From Bacteroidales bacterium (lineage in GTDB: Bacteria > Bacteroidota > Bacteroidia > Bacteroidales > UBA932): a stretch of 64,000 bases of DNA. Below, piece after piece: positions 5,104 to 16,314 of the stretch; within the stretch, counting starts at the first letter, position 1; every line of letters starts with the position of its first letter. The notes under the pieces are model-generated. The model had not been told where the DNA came from and did no database searches. It saw nothing but the letters and a program-made list of their open reading frames with translations. The stretch covers positions 302,385 to 366,384 of the forward strand of contig JAFRRA010000005.1 of NCBI GenBank assembly GCA_017428325.1. The letters run 5' to 3'. Position numbers and translations under genes: made by a program.

Positions 5104-5196
5104 TTAAGAATCTTGTCCTTGGCGATTGAACCTCGTTTAGACACTTCCTTTCTAAGTACAGTGGCTATAGATTGTATTATTGTAAAATGACTTTTG

Positions 5197-5204
5197 TATA
5201 TTTG
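5197..5204 (+). promoter_or_regulatory. -7 element for the McrB/LlaJI operon
   Basis: TATATTTG matches the TAnnTTTG -7 consensus. A weak ATTG lies at 5171-5174, about 22 bp upstream. Initiation near 5211 would give a leader of about 24 nt to the ATG at 5235. This excludes the longer in-frame start at 5172, which lies upstream of the promoter. Confidence 0.6.
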
Positions 5205-5234
5205 TTAGCAAGCAAAATCAATAATAACTATACT

Positions 5235-6734
5235 ATGTTCAGTGACATCCTTAAAAGATTTATAGCAAATAGTGATCTTATTGGAACAGATGATCATCAG
5301 CTATCTGTTAAAGGAAATATGAAAAAACTAAAGGATAATTGCAATTGTCCGAAAGAATTTAATGGTTTATCTGTAAAAATCAGTTTAGGAAAAGGTAATT
5401 GGGCTGATGTTACTTGGATAGGATTTACATCAAGTGGTCAGACAATTCAAAGAGGTATATATCCAGTTTATCTATATTATCGCAAATTCCATGTTCTTAT
5501 TTTAGCATATGGAATCAGTGATTCAAATACCCCTCAATTGTCTTGGAATAAAGATGCTATTACTATAAAAAACTATTTTACTAAGCAACAATTAGGAAAA
5601 CCTCCTCGCTATGGATCATCAATGGTCTATAAGGCTTATCGTAGCCCAGAAGAGATAAACGAAATAAAAGATGACGAGGATCTTAACAATCTTATTGCAG
5701 AGTATAAAAGTGTTTTATTACAAAACATAACAAAAACGGAAGAGGGATCTAATAAGCCACTCAAAGAGTCTAGTGGATTACCTGAACAAATTATATATTT
5801 TGGTGCCCCAGGCACTGGTAAATCCTACAATATAGAAAAAGAGCTTAATAGTAAAAACATCCAAGACGCACAAGTCAAGAGAGTGATTTTTTATCCAGAT
5901 TACTCATATTCAGATTTTATTGGTGGTTTAACTCCAGTGACCAATAATGAAGGTCAACCCGAATACAGGTTTGTAGCAGGGCCTTTTACAGAAATTCTTA
6001 AAGATGCTTTTAACAATCCTGATAAGCAGTATTATATGCTAATTGAAGAAATCAATAGAGGTAATGCTGCCGCTATTTTTGGCGATGTGTTTCAACTTCT
6101 TGACAGAAATTCTTCAGGCCGATCAAAATACACTATCACGAATTCAGATATATGTGGATATCTTCGCGGCCATGATATATCTAAGTTTAAAAATGACCGC
6201 ATCTGGTTGCCTAGTAACCTGAATATTATTTGCACGATGAATACGGCAGACCAGAATGTTTTTGTTCTTGATACAGCATTCAAGCGAAGGTTCACTATGG
6301 AATATGTGTCTATTGATTTTGGAAAACTGGATGCAGATGAAGTTAAGGGATACAATGATGAGACTAAGGTCTTTGAGGGCAGCAAATCTTTCAAGGATTT
6401 GTTTGAAAGCACAGACTTGGGGAGTTATGTCAATGAGCATGAGACCACGTTGAAGAGAAACTGGCCTACTTTTGCTCAACTTGTCAATGAGAAGATAAAC
6501 ATAGTCAACGGTAATGGAGACTCCATTTCAGAAGACAAGAAATTAGGACCATTTTTTGTCACCCTCGAAGAGTTGAAAGATAGGAGAAAGTTTGCAGATA
6601 AGGTTCTCTATTATCTGAAACAAGATGTCTTCAAATATACGGATTCTGTGCTCATACCTTCATATCAGAAACTTTACGATGATTTTGTAAAAGGCAAAGC
6701 GGACATCTTTGAGTTGTTTGCAGCAGCAAAATAA
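5235..6734 (+). CDS. McrB-like AAA+ GTPase of a restriction/defence system
   Basis: This 499-aa protein is a McrB-family motor. Residues about 1-130 match the MrcB-type N-terminal domain (GNWADVTWIGF, then RGIYPVYLYY), which in relatives reads DNA. The AAA+ domain has Walker A GAPGTGKS (about 190-197), Walker B LIEEINRGN (about 270) and the McrB guanine-specificity signature MNTAD (335-339), followed by AFKRRF with the arginine finger. In characterised systems such motors assemble with a nuclease subunit and use GTP to drive cleavage. The start at 5235 was chosen because a -7 element lies at 5197-5204, although the frame is open from 5172. The nuclease gene begins 3 bp after the stop. AT-rich codon use differs from most of the window and suggests transfer. 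Confidence 0.92.
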   Translation: MFSDILKRFIANSDLIGTDDHQLSVKGNMKKLKDNCNCPKEFNGLSVKISLGKGNWADVTWIGFTSSGQTIQRGIYPVYLYYRKFHVLILAYGISDSNTPQLSWNKDAITIKNYFTKQQLGKPPRYGSSMVYKAYRSPEEINEIKDDEDLNNLIAEYKSVLLQNITKTEEGSNKPLKESSGLPEQIIYFGAPGTGKSYNIEKELNSKNIQDAQVKRVIFYPDYSYSDFIGGLTPVTNNEGQPEYRFVAGPFTEILKDAFNNPDKQYYMLIEEINRGNAAAIFGDVFQLLDRNSSGRSKYTITNSDICGYLRGHDISKFKNDRIWLPSNLNIICTMNTADQNVFVLDTAFKRRFTMEYVSIDFGKLDADEVKGYNDETKVFEGSKSFKDLFESTDLGSYVNEHETTLKRNWPTFAQLVNEKINIVNGNGDSISEDKKLGPFFVTLEELKDRRKFADKVLYYLKQDVFKYTDSVLIPSYQKLYDDFVKGKADIFELFAAAK

Positions 6735-6737
6735 TTT

Positions 6738-7997
6738 GTGAAATACTCTATTGTTAACATATCAGAGACAGAAAAAGGTGGTCGCAGTTTTGTTGGCATA
6801 TCTAACATAAAGGATACCGACAAGACTAGGATAGTAGTGCCATACGGATTCCAAATTTCATCAGTTGTCGGTATTGAGGATAAGGATAGTATAGACCAGT
6901 TAAGGCGATATGTCAAGGTCATTCAAAAAGCGCTTCATACATACGTTGCTCAGCGAGAAGAAATTGATTTTTCCAAAGGAATGAATAGTCCCCTTGCTGC
7001 TGTAAACATAATTCAGGATTACCTTTCAATGGGTAGCTTTGTTGAATTTGAAAAGACTCTACAGGAATCTGATAAGGGAAAGATTAACTTCAGGCAGACA
7101 ATAAAGAAAATTCATCCAAGGATAATTGGTGGTGGATTTTTCTATGATTCGTTCATTACAGATAAAAAGTTAGTTGTCGAAGACAATTTAATAGCTCTTA
7201 TACAAGGGAATATTATCAATCATTTTATGTCACATGGTGGCGACGTTCTGTTTGGCAGATCCCTTGTGGCTCAAGTATTATTTGTTAATTTGGATAATAA
7301 ACAGGAGGCCCATCATGCCATTAGGCTTCTTCGTGAAGAGCAGAATAATACATTCAATTCAAGAAAACAGAATCTGATACGTTGGAGTATAGATTATATT
7401 CGTGGACTCCTTATTCCAAACTATGAAGAGCGTGGAGAATGGAATTATGCTATAGTTGCTAGTTCCCTTTGGGAAATAATAGTTGATTACGTCTTTGGAA
7501 ATCAGAAAAAACGAGATAAAACTGTTTATGGAACTACATATCGTTTTTTTGATATTGCAACTGGAAAGTACACGGAACAAGGTTCATCTACAGAACATGA
7601 TACCATTTATGAGGATGACGAATATATTTTCATAATAGATTCTAAAATGTATGCTTCCCAGAATGATTTGTTAACCGAAGCTATTCTTGGTAAGCAGTTT
7701 GGATATTATCTGTCTGCAAAGAAAAAGAAACCCCATAAAAAGATTGTTAATATGTTATTCCTTCCTTGTGTTGATTGTGAACGTGGGTTTCAATCAATCT
7801 TCATCCCCGATCCCAATGCTCCAAAATTATTAGATCCGGATAAGATGGTTTTTCTTTATTGTTATCCTGTTAATGATCTAATAGACGATTATTACTATGG
7901 ACGAAAACGAATAGGAAAAATTAAGAAAGATTTTTTGTCTTTTACGTCTTCTCCTAAAATTAGAGCCTATCTAGATGAGAGGGGAACCTCTTTCTGA
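6738..7997 (+). CDS. LlaJI-family restriction endonuclease subunit (McrC role)
   Basis: This 419-aa protein is the nuclease partner of the upstream McrB-like GTPase. The stretch INFRQTIKKIHPRI...YDSFITDKKL followed by a conserved hydrophobic helix, plus the C-terminal core, resemble the RE_LlaJI family (PF09563). The PD-(D/E)XK core is visible as Asp288 (EHDTIY) and Asp301-Ser-Lys303 (FIIDSKMY), so the active site looks intact. The start is GTG, 3 bp after the McrB stop, and no upstream alternative exists. The lactococcal LlaJI system pairs such genes with two cytosine methyltransferases, but none is present on either side here. The pair may therefore be modification-dependent like McrBC, or rely on a methylase elsewhere. 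Family confidence is moderate to good; specificity is unknown. Confidence 0.78.
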   Translation: MKYSIVNISETEKGGRSFVGISNIKDTDKTRIVVPYGFQISSVVGIEDKDSIDQLRRYVKVIQKALHTYVAQREEIDFSKGMNSPLAAVNIIQDYLSMGSFVEFEKTLQESDKGKINFRQTIKKIHPRIIGGGFFYDSFITDKKLVVEDNLIALIQGNIINHFMSHGGDVLFGRSLVAQVLFVNLDNKQEAHHAIRLLREEQNNTFNSRKQNLIRWSIDYIRGLLIPNYEERGEWNYAIVASSLWEIIVDYVFGNQKKRDKTVYGTTYRFFDIATGKYTEQGSSTEHDTIYEDDEYIFIIDSKMYASQNDLLTEAILGKQFGYYLSAKKKKPHKKIVNMLFLPCVDCERGFQSIFIPDPNAPKLLDPDKMVFLYCYPVNDLIDDYYYGRKRIGKIKKDFLSFTSSPKIRAYLDERGTSF

Positions 7998-10601: not shown

Positions 10602-11393
10602 CTAGTAGTTACCTTCGTTCTTGGTGGTGATAGGGCCTTCGTAGTAGAGTTTCCAGATGTTGCCGTTGCTTAGGGTAACATCTATTGTGGCCTTATAGCC
10701 TATTCCGGTAGTGAGTTCAAGGCTGTAGTATCCTGTGGCGGTGATAGGCAGGGTTTCCCACATCTCGTTCCTGATGACAGGGTTGCCGTCTCTGCTGAGG
10801 TAGATGGTTATGTCATTCTCGTTGTTGTTGCGTACGGAGCAGAGGAAGCAGGAGTCATATTCATCGAGAGAAGGATTAGGCTTGGAAACGTCTATCTTCT
10901 TGCCAAGATCCTTTGCCAGAACAGTCATGCGGAAATGTTCGGTGCCGTCTGAGAAGTCAACATCGTAGTAGTTTACCACTCCAGGGGAGTCATAAATCTT
11001 GTAGCCGGTGGCTTGCTTGATAGGGTAGGATGTAAGGGTCTTGGTCATTGTCCAGTAGACTCTTACGGTAGCGGTATTCCTTACGGCTCCGCAGGTGGCA
11101 ACTAGGTTTGCAGATCCTGCTTTGACTCCGGTTACCTTGCCGTTTTCAAATGTTGCTATGTCCGGCTTGCTGGAGTTTACCTGAAGGTCTCCCGTGTTTG
11201 TTGCGTTCTCCGGAACGGTAGTAACTTTAACAGGAAGAACCTGACCGATAAATATCTCCATCTTGTTCGGGTTGAACTCGATGCCGGTTACAGGTATGTT
11301 TTTCTCGCTTTTGCTGCAGGATGAAGCCAAAGATATAGCTGCTGTCAGCGACAAAGTCAAGATGCTCTTTATGGTTAGTTTACGGGTGTTCAT
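10602..11393 (-). CDS. Lipoprotein with bacterial Ig-like (BIG2) domain
   Basis: This 263-aa protein has a signal peptide ending in a lipobox-like ASSC. A BIG2-type Ig-like domain follows at about residues 33-112: PVTGIEFNPNKMEIFIGQ, VTTVPENAT, SSKPDIATFENGKVTGVKAGSA, then a final strand ATVRVYW. The C-terminal 150 residues form a beta-rich region with no family I can name (YYDVDFSDGTEHFRM, LTTGIGYKATIDVTL). Such lipoproteins are usually surface or periplasmic and bind ligands or matrix. It starts 36 bp after the STAS gene stop and could be the distal gene of the signalling operon, but it may be independent. The role is unknown. Confidence 0.8.
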   Translation of the reverse strand: MNTRKLTIKSILTLSLTAAISLASSCSKSEKNIPVTGIEFNPNKMEIFIGQVLPVKVTTVPENATNTGDLQVNSSKPDIATFENGKVTGVKAGSANLVATCGAVRNTATVRVYWTMTKTLTSYPIKQATGYKIYDSPGVVNYYDVDFSDGTEHFRMTVLAKDLGKKIDVSKPNPSLDEYDSCFLCSVRNNNENDITIYLSRDGNPVIRNEMWETLPITATGYYSLELTTGIGYKATIDVTLSNGNIWKLYYEGPITTKNEGNY

Positions 11394-11429: not shown

Positions 11430-11732
11430 CTATCTGATTTCAAACAGGTTCAGGAATCCTGTCATCATGAATACGCTGCGGATGTCGTTGTTGATGTTCT
11501 GGACGATGACCTTGCCTTTGCGGTCTTCTGCAGCCTTTCTGATGGTAAGGAAGATCCTGAGGCCTGAACTGGAAATGTAGGTCAGCTCCTTGCAGTCTAT
11601 GATGATGGTCTTGTCGGCCTCATCCAGAAGCGGAGTAATTTCAGGATTGGCTTCCTGGGCGGCTGGGGTGTCGAGACGGCCTGTGAATTCAATGGTAATC
11701 TGGCCTTCTTCTCTGGTGACTTTTGTTTTCAT
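11430..11732 (-). CDS. STAS-domain anti-sigma factor antagonist
   Basis: This 100-aa protein is a single STAS domain of the RsbV/SpoIIAA type. The phosphorylation loop is YISSSGLRIFLTIRKAAE, with the Ser after the DCKELT strand (IIIDCKELTYISSSGLR). In partner switching a serine kinase phosphorylates this Ser and a PP2C phosphatase removes the phosphate; the dephospho form sequesters the anti-sigma kinase. I chose the ATG at 11732. An in-frame ATG at 11765 would add 11 Lys/Asn-rich residues. It lies about 50 bp after the Cache-PP2C-HATPase gene, its probable kinase and phosphatase. No sigma factor is encoded nearby, so the output of the switch is not visible. Confidence 0.9.
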   Translation of the reverse strand: MKTKVTREEGQITIEFTGRLDTPAAQEANPEITPLLDEADKTIIIDCKELTYISSSGLRIFLTIRKAAEDRKGKVIVQNINNDIRSVFMMTGFLNLFEIR

Positions 11733-11783
11733 TTGCAGTATTGTCTTTTTTTTATTCTTATTCAATATGTCAGCTTATCCTTT

Positions 11784-13976
11784 TCAGCTTATCTTCTTGA
11801 TTAGGGTAAGTATGTTCCTGTTATCCTGGCGCCTGTAGGTGACGCTGTCCATAATCTTCTTGAACATGTGGATGCCGAGTCCACCGACAGGGCGGTCTCC
11901 TGCGTTCTGGTTAATGTCCACATCAGGGACAGCGGTAGGGTCGAACGGCTTGCCGCTGTCCGTAATGGTGAAGGTGATTCCATCTTCATCTGTCTGGGCA
12001 GCAATGTCCACGGTATCTGCACCGGAATACATTATCACGTTGGTAACAGCCTCCTCCATTGCAAGATTTATGCTGGATTTGAGAGATTCAGGAATTTTTA
12101 TGTCCTCAGCGATTTTGCCGATGAACTTTTCGAGTTCGTGAATTTGGCTGATATCGTTTGAAAGGGTTATGCTATTCACTGATTTATTTTGAGTAGGGTT
12201 GTTCAGATAATGGAAGAAGAGCATCGTAAGGTCGTCGCTCTGAGGAGCGTCTTTCACGAAGTCCGCAACGGCCTTCTTGACATTGTCCAGATGATCCTGG
12301 GCCGGTTTCCTTCCTGAAAGGGTGTCTTTGAGCCTTTGGAGGCCGAACATTCCGTGGGTAGGGTTTTCTGCCTCGGTGATACCGTCTGTATAGAGGAAGA
12401 CGGCATCGTCATAATGGAGGTCCACTTCCTGGAGGGTATATGGCCGGCCCTTGATGATGCCGAGCGGAAGGTTTGGATCCACAGGCAGTTCGCTGATCTT
12501 GTCAGTGAAAACCAGAGGGGCGTTGTGGCCGGCGTTGCTGTATTGCATCTTCCCGGTCTTGAGGTCCAGGACGCAGCATATGAAGGTGACGAACATGTTG
12601 CTGTCGTTCATGTCCGCCATACTGTTGTTCATCGCGGAAACAATCTCCTTTGGATTGTCCTGATGAGAGCTGATGCTGCGGAAAAGGCTTCTGGTCACCG
12701 CCATCAGCAGGGAGGCGGGAACTCCCTTTCCGGACACGTCGCCGATGCAGAAAAAGAGCTTTTCGTCCCTGATGAAAAAGTCGTAGAGGTCTCCGCTGAC
12801 CTCCTTTGCCGGAACCAGGGCGGCTGAAAGGTCTATGTCCTTCCTTTCCGGGAACGGAGGGAATGTCTTTGGAATCATGGACATCTGTATGTCGCTGGCG
12901 ATCATCAGCTCACTTTCCATTTTCTCCTTCTTCTCCGAAATGGACTTGAATTTCAGCTGGCTCTTGGCTATGGCGTGGAATATCAGGATTAACAGCAGAA
13001 GACCAAGACCCTGCAGTATCCTTATAAGATTGTTCAGTTTCCTCAGGCCGGTAAACATCTCCCTTTCAGGAATGATGATGTTCATGGCCCATCCGGTTTT
13101 ATCTATAGGAGTATAGTAAACCATGTTCCTGGTGCCGTTGTGAGTTACCTGGATACTGCCGCTTTCCCTGTTCAGCATCGCCCTGTTGAGGGCGTTGAAA
13201 GAAGCTGTGTCATCGACTGTGGCGGCATATTCATCGATGGTTGTGTTCATTATAAGGTTGTCGTCTGGGCTTACCATAAGCCTGCCTGTGCGGCTGACAA
13301 CTGTACTGAAGGCTCCCGGATATATCTTTATGTCATTGACGAGGGCCTTGAGCCACTCTAGGTCAATGTCTGCTGTAAGGACGGCGGCTATGCGGCCATC
13401 GTTATCCTTAATAGGGACGGAATAGGTGGTCATCAGGATTTCCCCGCCGCCTGTGTCCACATATGGTTCAGACCAGTAGCCGCGGTCCATCTCGACGGGT
13501 TTGACAAACCATTCCTGAGACGGGTAGTCGTACTCTGGAGTAGCCAGGGATGTCTCTATGATTTTGCCGTTTGTTATTGCGACATAGGGCGAATACAGGG
13601 GTCTGTCTTTATAATAATTTGGCACCAGAGCTATCGTGGAGCCGGCTATGATAGGGTTGTTGTTTACTATAAGTCTTGGAATGTTGGCCAGGCTGTCCGG
13701 GACCTGGAGGCACCACTGCGCAAGCCAGACGTTGTTCCTTACAGCGCTTTCAGCCTGGTTTACCACGTTCAGGATTCCGCTTTTGATAGCGTTAAGCTGG
13801 CTCTCGGCCTTGGTTTGGGCTTCGTTCCGGATGCCTTCCTGGGCATAGTATGCCTGGATAAGGGAAATGGCCCCGAGAACAGCGACAGCTACTACGATAA
13901 GCAGAAGGCCCGTCCATCTGGACCTTCTTTTCATCGCCTTTTCCGCAATCTTCTTAGCGTGATCTCTTACATTCAT
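11784..13976 (-). CDS. Membrane sensor with fused PP2C (SpoIIE) phosphatase and HATPase serine-kinase domains
   Basis: This 730-aa protein joins both opposing enzymes of a partner switch. A TM helix at about 23-43 is followed by a double-Cache-type periplasmic sensor (about 45-310, including WFVKPVEMDRGYWSEPY and TGWAMNIIIPE) and a second TM at about 320-337. A linker helix leads to a SpoIIE/PP2C domain (about 385-590) with metal-binding SGDLYD, GDVSGKGVPASLL, TDGITEAEN and SDDLT. The C-terminal HATPase_c_2 domain (about 605-730) has the N-box EEAVTNVIMYSG, the G1 box DSGKPFD and GGLGIHM. Phosphatase and kinase residues are all present, so both activities are expected. The likely substrate is the STAS protein encoded next. 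It follows the HD hydrolase gene by 8 bp, in the same operon. Confidence 0.92.
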   Translation of the reverse strand: MNVRDHAKKIAEKAMKRRSRWTGLLLIVVAVAVLGAISLIQAYYAQEGIRNEAQTKAESQLNAIKSGILNVVNQAESAVRNNVWLAQWCLQVPDSLANIPRLIVNNNPIIAGSTIALVPNYYKDRPLYSPYVAITNGKIIETSLATPEYDYPSQEWFVKPVEMDRGYWSEPYVDTGGGEILMTTYSVPIKDNDGRIAAVLTADIDLEWLKALVNDIKIYPGAFSTVVSRTGRLMVSPDDNLIMNTTIDEYAATVDDTASFNALNRAMLNRESGSIQVTHNGTRNMVYYTPIDKTGWAMNIIIPEREMFTGLRKLNNLIRILQGLGLLLLILIFHAIAKSQLKFKSISEKKEKMESELMIASDIQMSMIPKTFPPFPERKDIDLSAALVPAKEVSGDLYDFFIRDEKLFFCIGDVSGKGVPASLLMAVTRSLFRSISSHQDNPKEIVSAMNNSMADMNDSNMFVTFICCVLDLKTGKMQYSNAGHNAPLVFTDKISELPVDPNLPLGIIKGRPYTLQEVDLHYDDAVFLYTDGITEAENPTHGMFGLQRLKDTLSGRKPAQDHLDNVKKAVADFVKDAPQSDDLTMLFFHYLNNPTQNKSVNSITLSNDISQIHELEKFIGKIAEDIKIPESLKSSINLAMEEAVTNVIMYSGADTVDIAAQTDEDGITFTITDSGKPFDPTAVPDVDINQNAGDRPVGGLGIHMFKKIMDSVTYRRQDNRNILTLIKKIS

Positions 13977-13984
13977 AATACAGA

Positions 13985-14563
13985 TTATTGCCCGAATACC
14001 TGGTTAATAAGCGCTTCGAACTCCTTGAATGCGAAAGTGTCCTGAAGTTCCCTCAGAGAATCCGCAAGGCCCCTGTAATGCCACTCGTGGTCTTTCTTGT
14101 CTTTTACGTGGAATATTTTCCAGAGTTCGTCTCCCTTTTGCGCATAGTCCCTGGCGATGGCTCTCATGTTGGAGAGCTTGTCTCCCAGCGCCACGATCTT
14201 GGTGTCGCGGGGCGCATTTGCAAGCCGGGTGATTGCGCCTTGTTTGCGCTTGTGCCAGCTCTCTTTCCCGCTTCTGCCTTTAATGCCCTTGTCGCTTTCC
14301 GCATCCACGATGGAGGCGATCCTGTCCCCGAACTCCTTACGGATCAGGTCAATGGTCACACTGGTGTCTTCCACGGTGTCGTGAAGGGCGGCGGCGGCCA
14401 GGAGTTCCTGGTCTGAAGTCATGGTGGAAACTATCTCCACGGCTTCCATCGGATGTACTATGTAAGGGAATCCCTTCCCCCTTCTCTCCGTTCCCGAATG
14501 GGCCTTGACAGCGAATATTATCGCCCTGTCCAGAAGTTCCGTGTCTAAAGGTTTGTTTGCCAT
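13985..14563 (-). CDS. HD-domain alarmone hydrolase-like protein
   Basis: This 192-aa protein is a stand-alone HD domain of the RelA/SpoT-hydrolase or MESH1-like type (HD_4). The metal and catalytic set is visible: His22 (KAHSGT), His37 (VHPMEAVEIV), His61-Asp62 with Glu65-Asp66 (LHDTVEDTSV), and Asp128 (GDKLSNMR). This is the expected site for manganese-dependent removal of the 3' pyrophosphate from (p)ppGpp. It overlaps the stop of the synthetase-domain gene by one base, so translation is probably coupled. The two may form an opposing pair, or a toxin-antitoxin pair in which this hydrolase neutralises the synthetase. The substrate remains inferred. Confidence 0.85.
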   Translation of the reverse strand: MANKPLDTELLDRAIIFAVKAHSGTERRGKGFPYIVHPMEAVEIVSTMTSDQELLAAAALHDTVEDTSVTIDLIRKEFGDRIASIVDAESDKGIKGRSGKESWHKRKQGAITRLANAPRDTKIVALGDKLSNMRAIARDYAQKGDELWKIFHVKDKKDHEWHYRGLADSLRELQDTFAFKEFEALINQVFGQ

Positions 14564-15630
14564 TACTGCTGGTTCATGAAAGGCAGGTCCTTTGCCTGTT
14601 CCACAATCATTTCAGCAACGGTCTCGTTGCTCTCTTCCTTGCCGTTCAGAAGGTCGAAGAAATAGCGGACTCCGCCTTTTCCCCAGCCTTTTTTCAGAAT
14701 GTATGCTATGCAGAGGTTCTGCGGGCCGATTGAAGAGGAGACAATGTCCAGGTCTGTGAGTCCCATCTGGTAGCAGGCAATCTGGTAAGCGCCTTCGAAG
14801 TTGTCTTTTATGATGTTGTGTATGTCTCCCAGGGTCTTGCATCCTATGCCCTTGAAAACGGCAAGGTAAGGAAGCAGGGAAACTTCCTGGATCTCAGCCT
14901 GGTTTACGGCCGCAATCTTCCTGTTAATCTGCCGGAACGGATCCAGTCCCAGGAAACTGCGGAACGAGTCTCCGTCCAGCGGGACTTCGTCCAGGTTGCC
15001 GGAAGAGACCAGTTTGTGGATCTTCCTTCTGTAGTCTGTAAGCTCGGAGCGGATCCTGCTGAATTCCTCGTCTATCAGTTCCAGCATTCCTGCCAGACGG
15101 CTCATGGAGCGCATGTATCTTTTCGGGATCTCCACTCCGGACTTGTATCCGGTGTCGTGGTCCAGGTTTGCCCAGGCGTGCTGGAGGACGGTACGCATCT
15201 GGATCTCGAACCTGTATGGGAAATCTTTCATCTTACAGACATAATGCAGGGAGAGATAGCCGAAACTGTCTATGTCGTGGAGTTTGCGCTTGTCGATGGA
15301 ATTCTCCCAGTCCACATCAAACAGTCTCTCGATTGCCGTGGCAACCTTGTCCACATCGTCTATGTAGTAGGTAATAAGGCGGACACCCAGGATATCGGTA
15401 ATGTCGGCCAGGCTCTTGTATTTGTTGCCTTTCCTTTCCAGCTTTCCTTCAAGGGAGTCTTCCGTCTTGATTCTGGACTCGATGCTCGCCAAATGGATTC
15501 CCGCCTCCTTTAAAGACTGCCTGAGAAGGGCGGCTATCTTCAGTTCCGCCTCTGCAAAAAGAGGACGTCTGTCTCTGTATTCCTGCATGATAGCCATGCA
15601 GTGAGGGTCAAGTTGAGTGGACTGGGACAT
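14563..15630 (-). CDS. RelA/SpoT synthetase-domain protein ((p)ppGpp synthetase-like)
   Basis: This 355-aa protein has a single RelA_SpoT nucleotidyltransferase domain without HD, TGS or ACT domains, as in small alarmone synthetases, but with a long C-terminal extension. Landmarks are RIKTEDSLEGKLERKG (ATP-binding basic loop), ITDILGVRLITYY, SFGYLSLHYV (with the GTP-stacking Tyr), and FEIQMRTVLQHAWANLDHDTGY (catalytic Glu and the Q/H motif). Residues about 200-355 contain a helical section and a region (LLPYLAVFKGIGCKTLGDI) I cannot assign. It would make (p)ppGpp, or, as in toxic SAS enzymes, pyrophosphorylate another acceptor. It starts 2 bp after the kinase-like gene and overlaps the hydrolase gene by one base. 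Confidence 0.88.
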   Translation of the reverse strand: MSQSTQLDPHCMAIMQEYRDRRPLFAEAELKIAALLRQSLKEAGIHLASIESRIKTEDSLEGKLERKGNKYKSLADITDILGVRLITYYIDDVDKVATAIERLFDVDWENSIDKRKLHDIDSFGYLSLHYVCKMKDFPYRFEIQMRTVLQHAWANLDHDTGYKSGVEIPKRYMRSMSRLAGMLELIDEEFSRIRSELTDYRRKIHKLVSSGNLDEVPLDGDSFRSFLGLDPFRQINRKIAAVNQAEIQEVSLLPYLAVFKGIGCKTLGDIHNIIKDNFEGAYQIACYQMGLTDLDIVSSSIGPQNLCIAYILKKGWGKGGVRYFFDLLNGKEESNETVAEMIVEQAKDLPFMNQQ

Positions 15631-15632
15631 TG

Positions 15633-16277
15633 TTACTTGATGTAAGACAGGATGATGTCTACGAGTTCGTCTTCAGTGTGGTTGTCTGCATTAATCACAA
15701 GGTCGTAGTTGCGGGCGTCATAGCGGCTTATTCCGGTATAGCGCTTAACGTAATTCTCCCTGGACTCGTCTATGGAATCCATAATGGTCTCCGCCTCGGT
15801 TTCAGTCATATGCTGCTTGCGGACAATTCTCTTGATGCGGTTTTCCCTTGATGCGGTGATGAAGACGTCAATCTTGTTAGGATGGTCTTTCAGAACGAAG
15901 AAGCCGCTTCTTCCGGCAATTACGCAGGAACCCTCTTCTGCGATTTCCCTGAGGATTTCCTTTTCTGCCTTGTAGATGTCGTCTGTGGTGACATCAGAGC
16001 GGAGTTCATTCAGGAACTTGCTGTCGGTATCCATAATCATACTGGCCTTAGGAACAGGCGCTACCATATGGATCAGGTCTGCCAGCCAGCTTTTCTTCTC
16101 TCCCTTGAGTTTCTCGATAGCGTAGGTTGTCAGGTTGAATTTCTCCCTGAGGTTGCGGATGAGTTCCTTGTCTGAATAGCGTACGCCCAGTTTGGCGGCA
16201 AGCTTGCGCCCAATGGTCCTTCCTCCGGAACCGATTTCACGGGCGATGGTGATGACGAATTTCTCTTTAGTATCCAT
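15633..16277 (-). CDS. Cytidylate kinase-like family protein
   Basis: This 214-aa protein matches the cytidylate-kinase-like family (PF13189). The P-loop is the variant IAREIGSGGRTIGRKLA, followed by LGVRYSDKELI. A lid-like basic region (ASRENRIKRIVRKQH) and RYTGISRYDARNYDLVIN near the end are typical. Canonical Cmk phosphorylates CMP, but members of this group often lack a proven substrate. It is the first gene of the operon with the alarmone synthetase, hydrolase, Cache-PP2C-HATPase sensor and STAS protein, starting 30 bp after a TAAATTTG -7 element. Its position suggests it feeds or senses nucleotides for that system; this is inference. Confidence 0.85.
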   Translation of the reverse strand: MDTKEKFVITIAREIGSGGRTIGRKLAAKLGVRYSDKELIRNLREKFNLTTYAIEKLKGEKKSWLADLIHMVAPVPKASMIMDTDSKFLNELRSDVTTDDIYKAEKEILREIAEEGSCVIAGRSGFFVLKDHPNKIDVFITASRENRIKRIVRKQHMTETEAETIMDSIDESRENYVKRYTGISRYDARNYDLVINADNHTEDELVDIILSYIK

Positions 16278-16306: not shown

Positions 16307-16314
16307 CAAATTTA
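16307..16314 (-). promoter_or_regulatory. -7 element of the alarmone/partner-switch operon
   Basis: The minus strand reads TAAATTTG, an exact TAnnTTTG match, 30 bp before the ATG at 16277. It gives a leader of about 23 nt. No other TAnnTTTG element was noticed before the five close-packed genes downstream, so this probably drives the whole unit. The -33 region is only a weak TTTTC. Confidence 0.6.

Follow-up and report, generated by a model that had tools for sequence, protein, structure and literature searches.

What does a partner-switching module control when its genes share an operon with enzymes of alarmone metabolism? The question is raised by five minus-strand genes of a Bacteroidales bacterium (GTDB lineage Bacteroidales; UBA932), which lie in the window analyzed here, a stretch of 64,000 nucleotides from contig JAFRRA010000005.1 of assembly GCA_017428325.1 (positions 302,385 to 366,384). 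The genes encode a cytidylate-kinase-like protein (CMK2), a RelA/SpoT synthetase-domain protein (RelS), a small-alarmone-hydrolase-like protein (HD), a membrane sensor with Cache, SpoIIE-type phosphatase and HATPase domains (PP2C sensor) and a STAS protein. An earlier note on the window had read them as a single unit in which an outside signal sets the state of the STAS protein and, through it, the alarmone level. Comparison of related loci leads us to a modified answer, held at a little short of even confidence: the genes may form one module in which an extracytoplasmic sensor controls a dedicated alarmone synthetase/hydrolase pair through the STAS protein and an additional kinase, X, which is absent from the window operon.

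Conservation of the gene set

The module is not rare and occurs in Bacteroidales of gut and rumen. A scan of GTDB genome contigs with a RelS alignment yielded 467 encoded relatives, and because the best 80 of these (L065-L144) were examined, counts per 80 are biased to close relatives. Loci of the window's genus supplied the profiles for RelS, HD, X, PP2C, STAS and CMK2, and the 80 loci supplied the antiporter profile. The record titles of the 80 loci name only Bacteroidales, Bacteroidaceae, Prevotellaceae or Bacteroidia; ruminant stomachs are the usual source, and several titles state none. Profile searches around RelS detected X in 77 loci, HD in 76, PP2C in 75 and STAS in 70. The five core genes, RelS, HD, X, PP2C and STAS, occurred together in 66 of the 80 loci, which is a minimum wherever contigs end. 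Among the 58 loci where RelS is flanked by 6 kb or more on each side, 53 hold the full set, the exceptions being L091, L094, L100, L118 and L128. The median distance between adjacent core profile matches was -1 to 7 bp. The commonest flanking gene clusters besides the antiporter served as the control and recurred in 9 of 81 loci (the 80 and the window); chance adjacency of the module genes was rejected on this comparison. The 66 complete sets fall into four gene orders (55, 5, 3 and 1 loci), apart from two loci where PP2C or PP2C-STAS is present twice. A second PP2C-STAS pair stands in tandem at L107:10444-15438.

These counts uphold the claim that the alarmone pair and the partner switch belong together, with two corrections: CMK2, present in 15 of the 80 loci, is optional and was rejected as a core part, and X had been overlooked. 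The gene set recurs in other genomes, but the exact order of the window was seen only in the window.

Of 61 genomes searched for RelS (E <= 1e-10), 17 gave a match; every one of these is from the set of 37 belonging to the window's genus, and the 24 from other families gave no match. Within the 37 genus genomes, the same 16 carry close PP2C (E <= 1e-250) and close X (E <= 1e-130), and each of them also has RelS; in G035, RelS-HD stands without close PP2C or close X. The whole operon is also present in G061, which lies beyond these 37. Weaker PP2C matches without RelS occurred in G009, G010 and G024, weaker X matches in G006, G009, G034 and G035, and a second X copy in G011. Across the order, RelS was detected at 1e-40 in 9 of 393 genomes, representing six families, and across the phylum RelS-like matches at 1e-20 occurred in 11 of 395 genomes, the window's own included. 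Around ten distant RelS-like matches from other classes, the profiles detected no other module gene in ten short loci or in seven wider regions (L183-L189). Loci of other families are rearranged: L175 has the order RelS-HD-X-PP2C-STAS and L176 the order PP2C-STAS-RelS-X-HD, and in L177-L180 HATPase and SpoIIE are separate genes, followed by STAS, RelS and an HD-X fusion.

Kinase X and the fusion proteins

In 15 of 16 fetched sister-species loci, the gene separating HD from PP2C encodes X, a protein of about 277 amino acids; the exception, L033, has RelS-HD and neither X nor PP2C. HD followed directly by PP2C, the window order, was found in none of the other loci examined. The window's genome (G000; 1.95 Mb, 7 contigs, 89% complete) carries X outside the window, on contig C6 (162886-163716), as an open frame 87% identical to the query copy. 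Loss of X from this genome was rejected on that account; with X intact on another contig, the operon is split in this genome. The gene beside X on C6, taken from its sequence as dihydropyrimidine-dehydrogenase-like, matches by eye the immediate neighbor of the whole operon in L023, L024 and L026; a gene resembling it, again by eye, lies two open reading frames (ORFs) from the operon in L019.

The Pfam APH match (2.8e-12) makes X an APH-fold kinase. Two copies matched TIGR02172 (Fb_sc) across the whole model with 220 and 216.4 bits. Single X proteins scored 213.2 to 224.9 bits, just under the cut-off of 228.2, and HD-X fusions scored 238.2 and 232.3. Nine aligned kinase sequences all share H163, D165, N170 and D183 (X numbering), and the X motif is kept in 75 of 76 related copies. 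TIGR02172 matched 7 of 295 genomes of the order, the five below 1e-60 all being RelS carriers, and 1 of 390 genomes in the phylum sample, namely the window's own.

HD and X form a single protein in L177-L180, four loci of two other families (by profiles, with Pfam HD_4 and APH for L178 and L180). L194 and L200 encode STAS and an X-type kinase in one protein (Pfam STAS and APH), as do L207 of another family (custom profiles) and, weakly, L199, where the STAS match of 0.0028 is under the cut-off. The SSG serine motif is kept in the fused STAS parts of L194, L200 and L207. Genes for an NMT1-like protein and a Cache-HAMP-SpoIIE-HATPase protein lie beside the fusion in L194, and L200 has a 640-aa gene matching the custom PP2C profile. 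No STAS-RelS or STAS-HD fusion was found among loci scanned for double-domain ORFs. The existence of STAS-X and HD-X fusions suggests that STAS pairs with X, and X with HD. A tyrosine-phosphatase-family gene (Y_phosphatase3, 2.3e-50) was also observed at L194:7242-8117, between the STAS-kinase fusion and the sensor genes.

Proposed mechanism

The proposed relay is built on the parts themselves, their intact motifs, their conserved linkage and the two kinds of fusion. The Cache domain would read an outside signal and change the relative activity of the SpoIIE phosphatase and HATPase kinase within the same protein, and this balance would set the phosphorylation of the STAS serine. STAS would then bind or release X. 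X, in turn, would act on the HD hydrolase, which it might phosphorylate or whose nucleotide it might consume or supply, and the RelS/HD balance would tilt between making and removing a hyperphosphorylated nucleotide, most likely (p)ppGpp or a close analogue, apart from two long RelA/SpoT-type proteins of the same genome. In G000, X would work in trans from another contig. What conservation bears out of the earlier note's reading is the association of sensor and switch with the synthetase/hydrolase pair; we infer the direction of each step, the substrates, the nucleotide product, including (p)ppGpp, and the role of X as direct STAS target.

Several observations weigh against this relay. RelS-HD occurs without the switch or X nearby in L033, L091, L181 and L182, and RelS alone in L100; in L128, L130 and L143, X-PP2C-STAS accompanies RelS with no HD found nearby. 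X lies outside the window operon. Two loci with STAS-X fusions, L194 and L200, belong to genomes of the genus in which RelS found no match at the threshold applied (G006 and G009), so X can have another function. The arginine of the GYRS motif is replaced in all 80 RelS copies (L in 59, M in 12, V in 6 and Q in 3), and the substrate or activity of RelS may differ because of this.

Alternatively, the direct target of STAS might be HD, or RelS by way of its conserved C-terminal region, with X as a parallel enzyme. Direct action on a nucleotide enzyme had been proposed earlier, and it retains some appeal, since STAS directly precedes RelS in L177-L180 and in the PP2C-STAS-RelS loci. The C-terminal region of RelS (about 155 residues) is nearly as conserved as the catalytic domain (mean majority fraction 0.80 versus 0.85) and gave no Pfam match over the cut-off in four proteins, the best being PIN_6 at 0.0075 in one. 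The fusions, however, join STAS to X and not to RelS or HD, which on sequence grounds makes X the better candidate for direct partner of STAS, and we consider direct action on RelS or HD unlikely.

The antiporter neighbor

The relay through X would leave the nucleotide as the output, and a frequent neighbor invites another view. A K+/H+ antiporter-like gene was detected in 32 of the 80 loci. Its median gap is 2 bp both in the 17 loci where it follows STAS and in the 9 where it follows PP2C, and the single copy tested matched Na_H_Exchanger and TrkA_C. Such tight placement would fit ion balance being the real output, with the nucleotide or the kinase acting on the TrkA_C domain of the antiporter. 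The gene was nevertheless absent within the fetched region of 48 of the 80 loci and is also absent from the window, and we regard an ion-balance output as rather improbable. A long shot is that the relay makes a private nucleotide signal that directly gates the K+/H+ antiporter through TrkA_C; in view of the GY[LMVQ]S change, the nucleotide may be something other than ppGpp. Such gating would be an alarmone-type counterpart of the control of potassium by c-di-AMP.

The synthetase and hydrolase

PF04607 is the sole Pfam match of RelS, which has no HD, TGS or ACT domain. The solved structures closest to the RelS profile are YwaC/YjbM-type chains (4e-17 to 2e-15), compared with 0.008 for 7ztb and 9erv (RelA/SpoT family protein), presumably CapRel, and 0.76 for FaRel2. 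None of the 21 motif residues checked varies among 41 copies, but the GYRS arginine is replaced in all 80 copies. HD adjoins RelS in 17 of 17 genus loci. It consists of a single HD domain, with the HDxxED and DKLxNM motifs both in 74 of 76 related copies, and its closest structure chains are 4yf1 (1e-25), 7qoe (7e-25) and 7qoc (6e-22). Elsewhere in G000, RelA_SpoT domains occur in two long ORFs of 742 and 707 aa, so the RelS-HD pair is additional. In Atkinson 2011 (PMC3153485), Rel[HS] and RshB[HS] are listed as the set for its 8 Bacteroidia genomes, and one further column of the table is marked.

The pairing of a synthetase with a hydrolase also allows for a toxin-antitoxin or anti-phage pair of the toxic small alarmone synthetase (toxSAS) kind that has been placed under sensor control. 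Bacterial small alarmone hydrolases (SAHs) are often found with toxic synthetases, and roles beyond antitoxins are possible, according to PMC9765508. The PADLOC candidate PDC-S33 matched the synthetase domain of the window RelS (5.8e-17) and of all five RelS-type proteins tested, a RelS relative in L190 stands alone among phage structural genes on a plasmid, and the module is patchy, being present in 17 of the 37 genus genomes. The RelS profile, however, resembles the YwaC/YjbM type (about 1e-16) far more closely than 7ztb or FaRel2, and a simple toxin-antitoxin pair would not be expected to have a conserved sensor switch. That the pair is toxSAS-like seems improbable to us as well.

The L190 gene (L190:3989-5062), annotated as a (p)ppGpp synthetase of 357 aa, is 42% identical to RelS over 224 residues, lies on a Bacteroides finegoldii plasmid and gave a partial PDC-S33 match.

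The sensor, the STAS protein and sigma factors

The window's sensor combines MCP-like_PDC_1 (2.9e-28), SpoIIE (4.4e-50) and HATPase_c_2 (2.2e-23) in one protein, and all seven PP2C proteins tested from related loci have PDC/Cache, SpoIIE and HATPase_c_2 matches in Pfam. In five of five aligned sequences, D396, D413, D531 and D581 of the SpoIIE/PP2C domain, which we take to be metal ligands, are invariant, as are E642, N646, D673, G675, G699 and G701 of the HATPase domain, presumably its N and G boxes. The SSS-G serine motif of STAS is kept in 71 of 71 related copies and contains the putative phosphorylatable serine. An NMT1/THI5-like binding-protein gene was observed just upstream of the PP2C sensor in 7 of the 80 loci (L076, L077, L079, L080, L082, L097 and L104); its product is a possible ligand-binding partner of the sensor.

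G000 contains one STAS match and one HATPase_c_2 match over the cut-off, a second (9e-4) being under it. No group-3 sigma factor is encoded in the operon, in agreement with the earlier note, and a single Sigma70_r3 match was found in the 89%-complete genome; ECF sigma factors are not detectable by that family and were not searched. Because G000 has only these single matches to STAS, HATPase_c_2 and Sigma70_r3, a sigma-factor output appears unlikely. That a classical RsbU/V/W-type switch frees a sigma factor here, with the neighboring nucleotide genes incidental, is very improbable: the phosphatase, kinase and STAS families are of the Rsb/SpoII type, but G000 has that single Sigma70_r3 match and the linkage to RelS, HD and X survives rearranged gene orders. 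The module behaves like a partner switch and we do not class it as sigma-B-type.

Relation to known systems

Like RsbU/RsbV/RsbW and SpoIIE/SpoIIAA/SpoIIAB, the module comprises a SpoIIE-type phosphatase, an HATPase_c_2 kinase and a STAS protein with a serine motif. It differs from them in that a single Cache membrane protein carries both phosphatase and kinase (L177-L180 have separate genes), in that no partner sigma factor was found, and in that STAS is tied to a kinase and alarmone-type enzymes. RelS shares with YjbM/YwaC-type small alarmone synthetases (RelP/RelQ) a RelA_SpoT domain without HD, TGS or ACT, but has the extra C-terminal residues, the replaced GYRS arginine and an operon with HD and the switch. 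HD resembles the Mesh1/SAH hydrolases in its lone HD domain with HDxxED; unlike them, it is joined in L177-L180 to an APH-fold kinase. ToxSAS systems with HD antitoxins likewise pair a synthetase gene with a gene for an HD hydrolase, whereas RelS has negligible similarity to FaRel2 and comes with a sensor, STAS and X. X matches the whole TIGR02172 model, with single proteins below its cut-off and HD-X fusions above it, and is linked here to STAS, HD and RelS.

Every component belongs to a known family, and the novelty would lie in their combination: partner switching whose output is, on our reading, an alarmone-type enzyme pair reached through a kinase. Alarmone enzymes are familiar chiefly as targets of control by ribosomes, nutrients or transcription. 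If the proposed relay is correct, alarmone signaling would gain an outside input through a membrane sensor with its own synthetase/hydrolase pair, partner switching would gain an output other than a sigma factor, and TIGR02172-type kinases would have a first role. No description of the combined module and no match for TIGR02172 were found in the open-licence PMC papers searched; PMC3861447 and PMC8256260 are unrelated to the module.

Layout of the window operon

The five genes, all open, occupy 11430-16277 (Table 1), and their close packing and families are as the earlier note had described. The intergenic gaps, in operon order, are 2, -1, 8 and 18 bp, the last becoming 51 bp with the internal ATG of STAS. 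This ATG is more likely the true STAS start, since aligned relatives begin at that methionine.

The evidence on the promoter box of the earlier note is uneven. ATTAAATTTGTA, which contains the promoter-like box, shows no variation between the window and six sister species. TANNTTTG alone occurs 31 times in the window against 30.8 expected, so significance of TAAATTTG by frequency was rejected; the box is nevertheless conserved.

Table 1. Features of the operon, in coordinates of the window
Feature	Coordinates	Strand	Basis
Promoter-like TAAATTTG box, upstream of first gene	16307..16314	-	Conservation
CMK2, cytidylate-kinase-like, 214 aa, optional member	15633..16277	-	Pfam PF13189 Cytidylate_kin2, 3.6e-46
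RelS, RelA/SpoT synthetase-domain, 355 aa	14563..15630	-	Pfam PF04607 RelA_SpoT, 1.1e-19
HD, small-alarmone-hydrolase-like, 192 aa	13985..14563	-	Pfam PF13328 HD_4, 7.9e-19
HD-PP2C junction, 8 bp; position of gene X in sister species	13977..13984	-	Locus comparison
PP2C sensor, Cache - SpoIIE (PP2C) - HATPase, 730 aa	11784..13976	-	PF22673, PF02743, PF07228, PF13581
STAS protein, 100 aa, start revised from 11765	11430..11732	-	Pfam PF01740 STAS, 5.5e-16

Directly downstream of STAS, on the same strand, a Big_2-domain protein is encoded at 10602-11393; a homologue was found in 5 of the 16 sister loci, and the gene may be co-transcribed with the operon in this lineage. Elsewhere in the window, two plus-strand ORFs at 5172-7997 resemble a McrB/McrC-type restriction pair, as judged from their translations.

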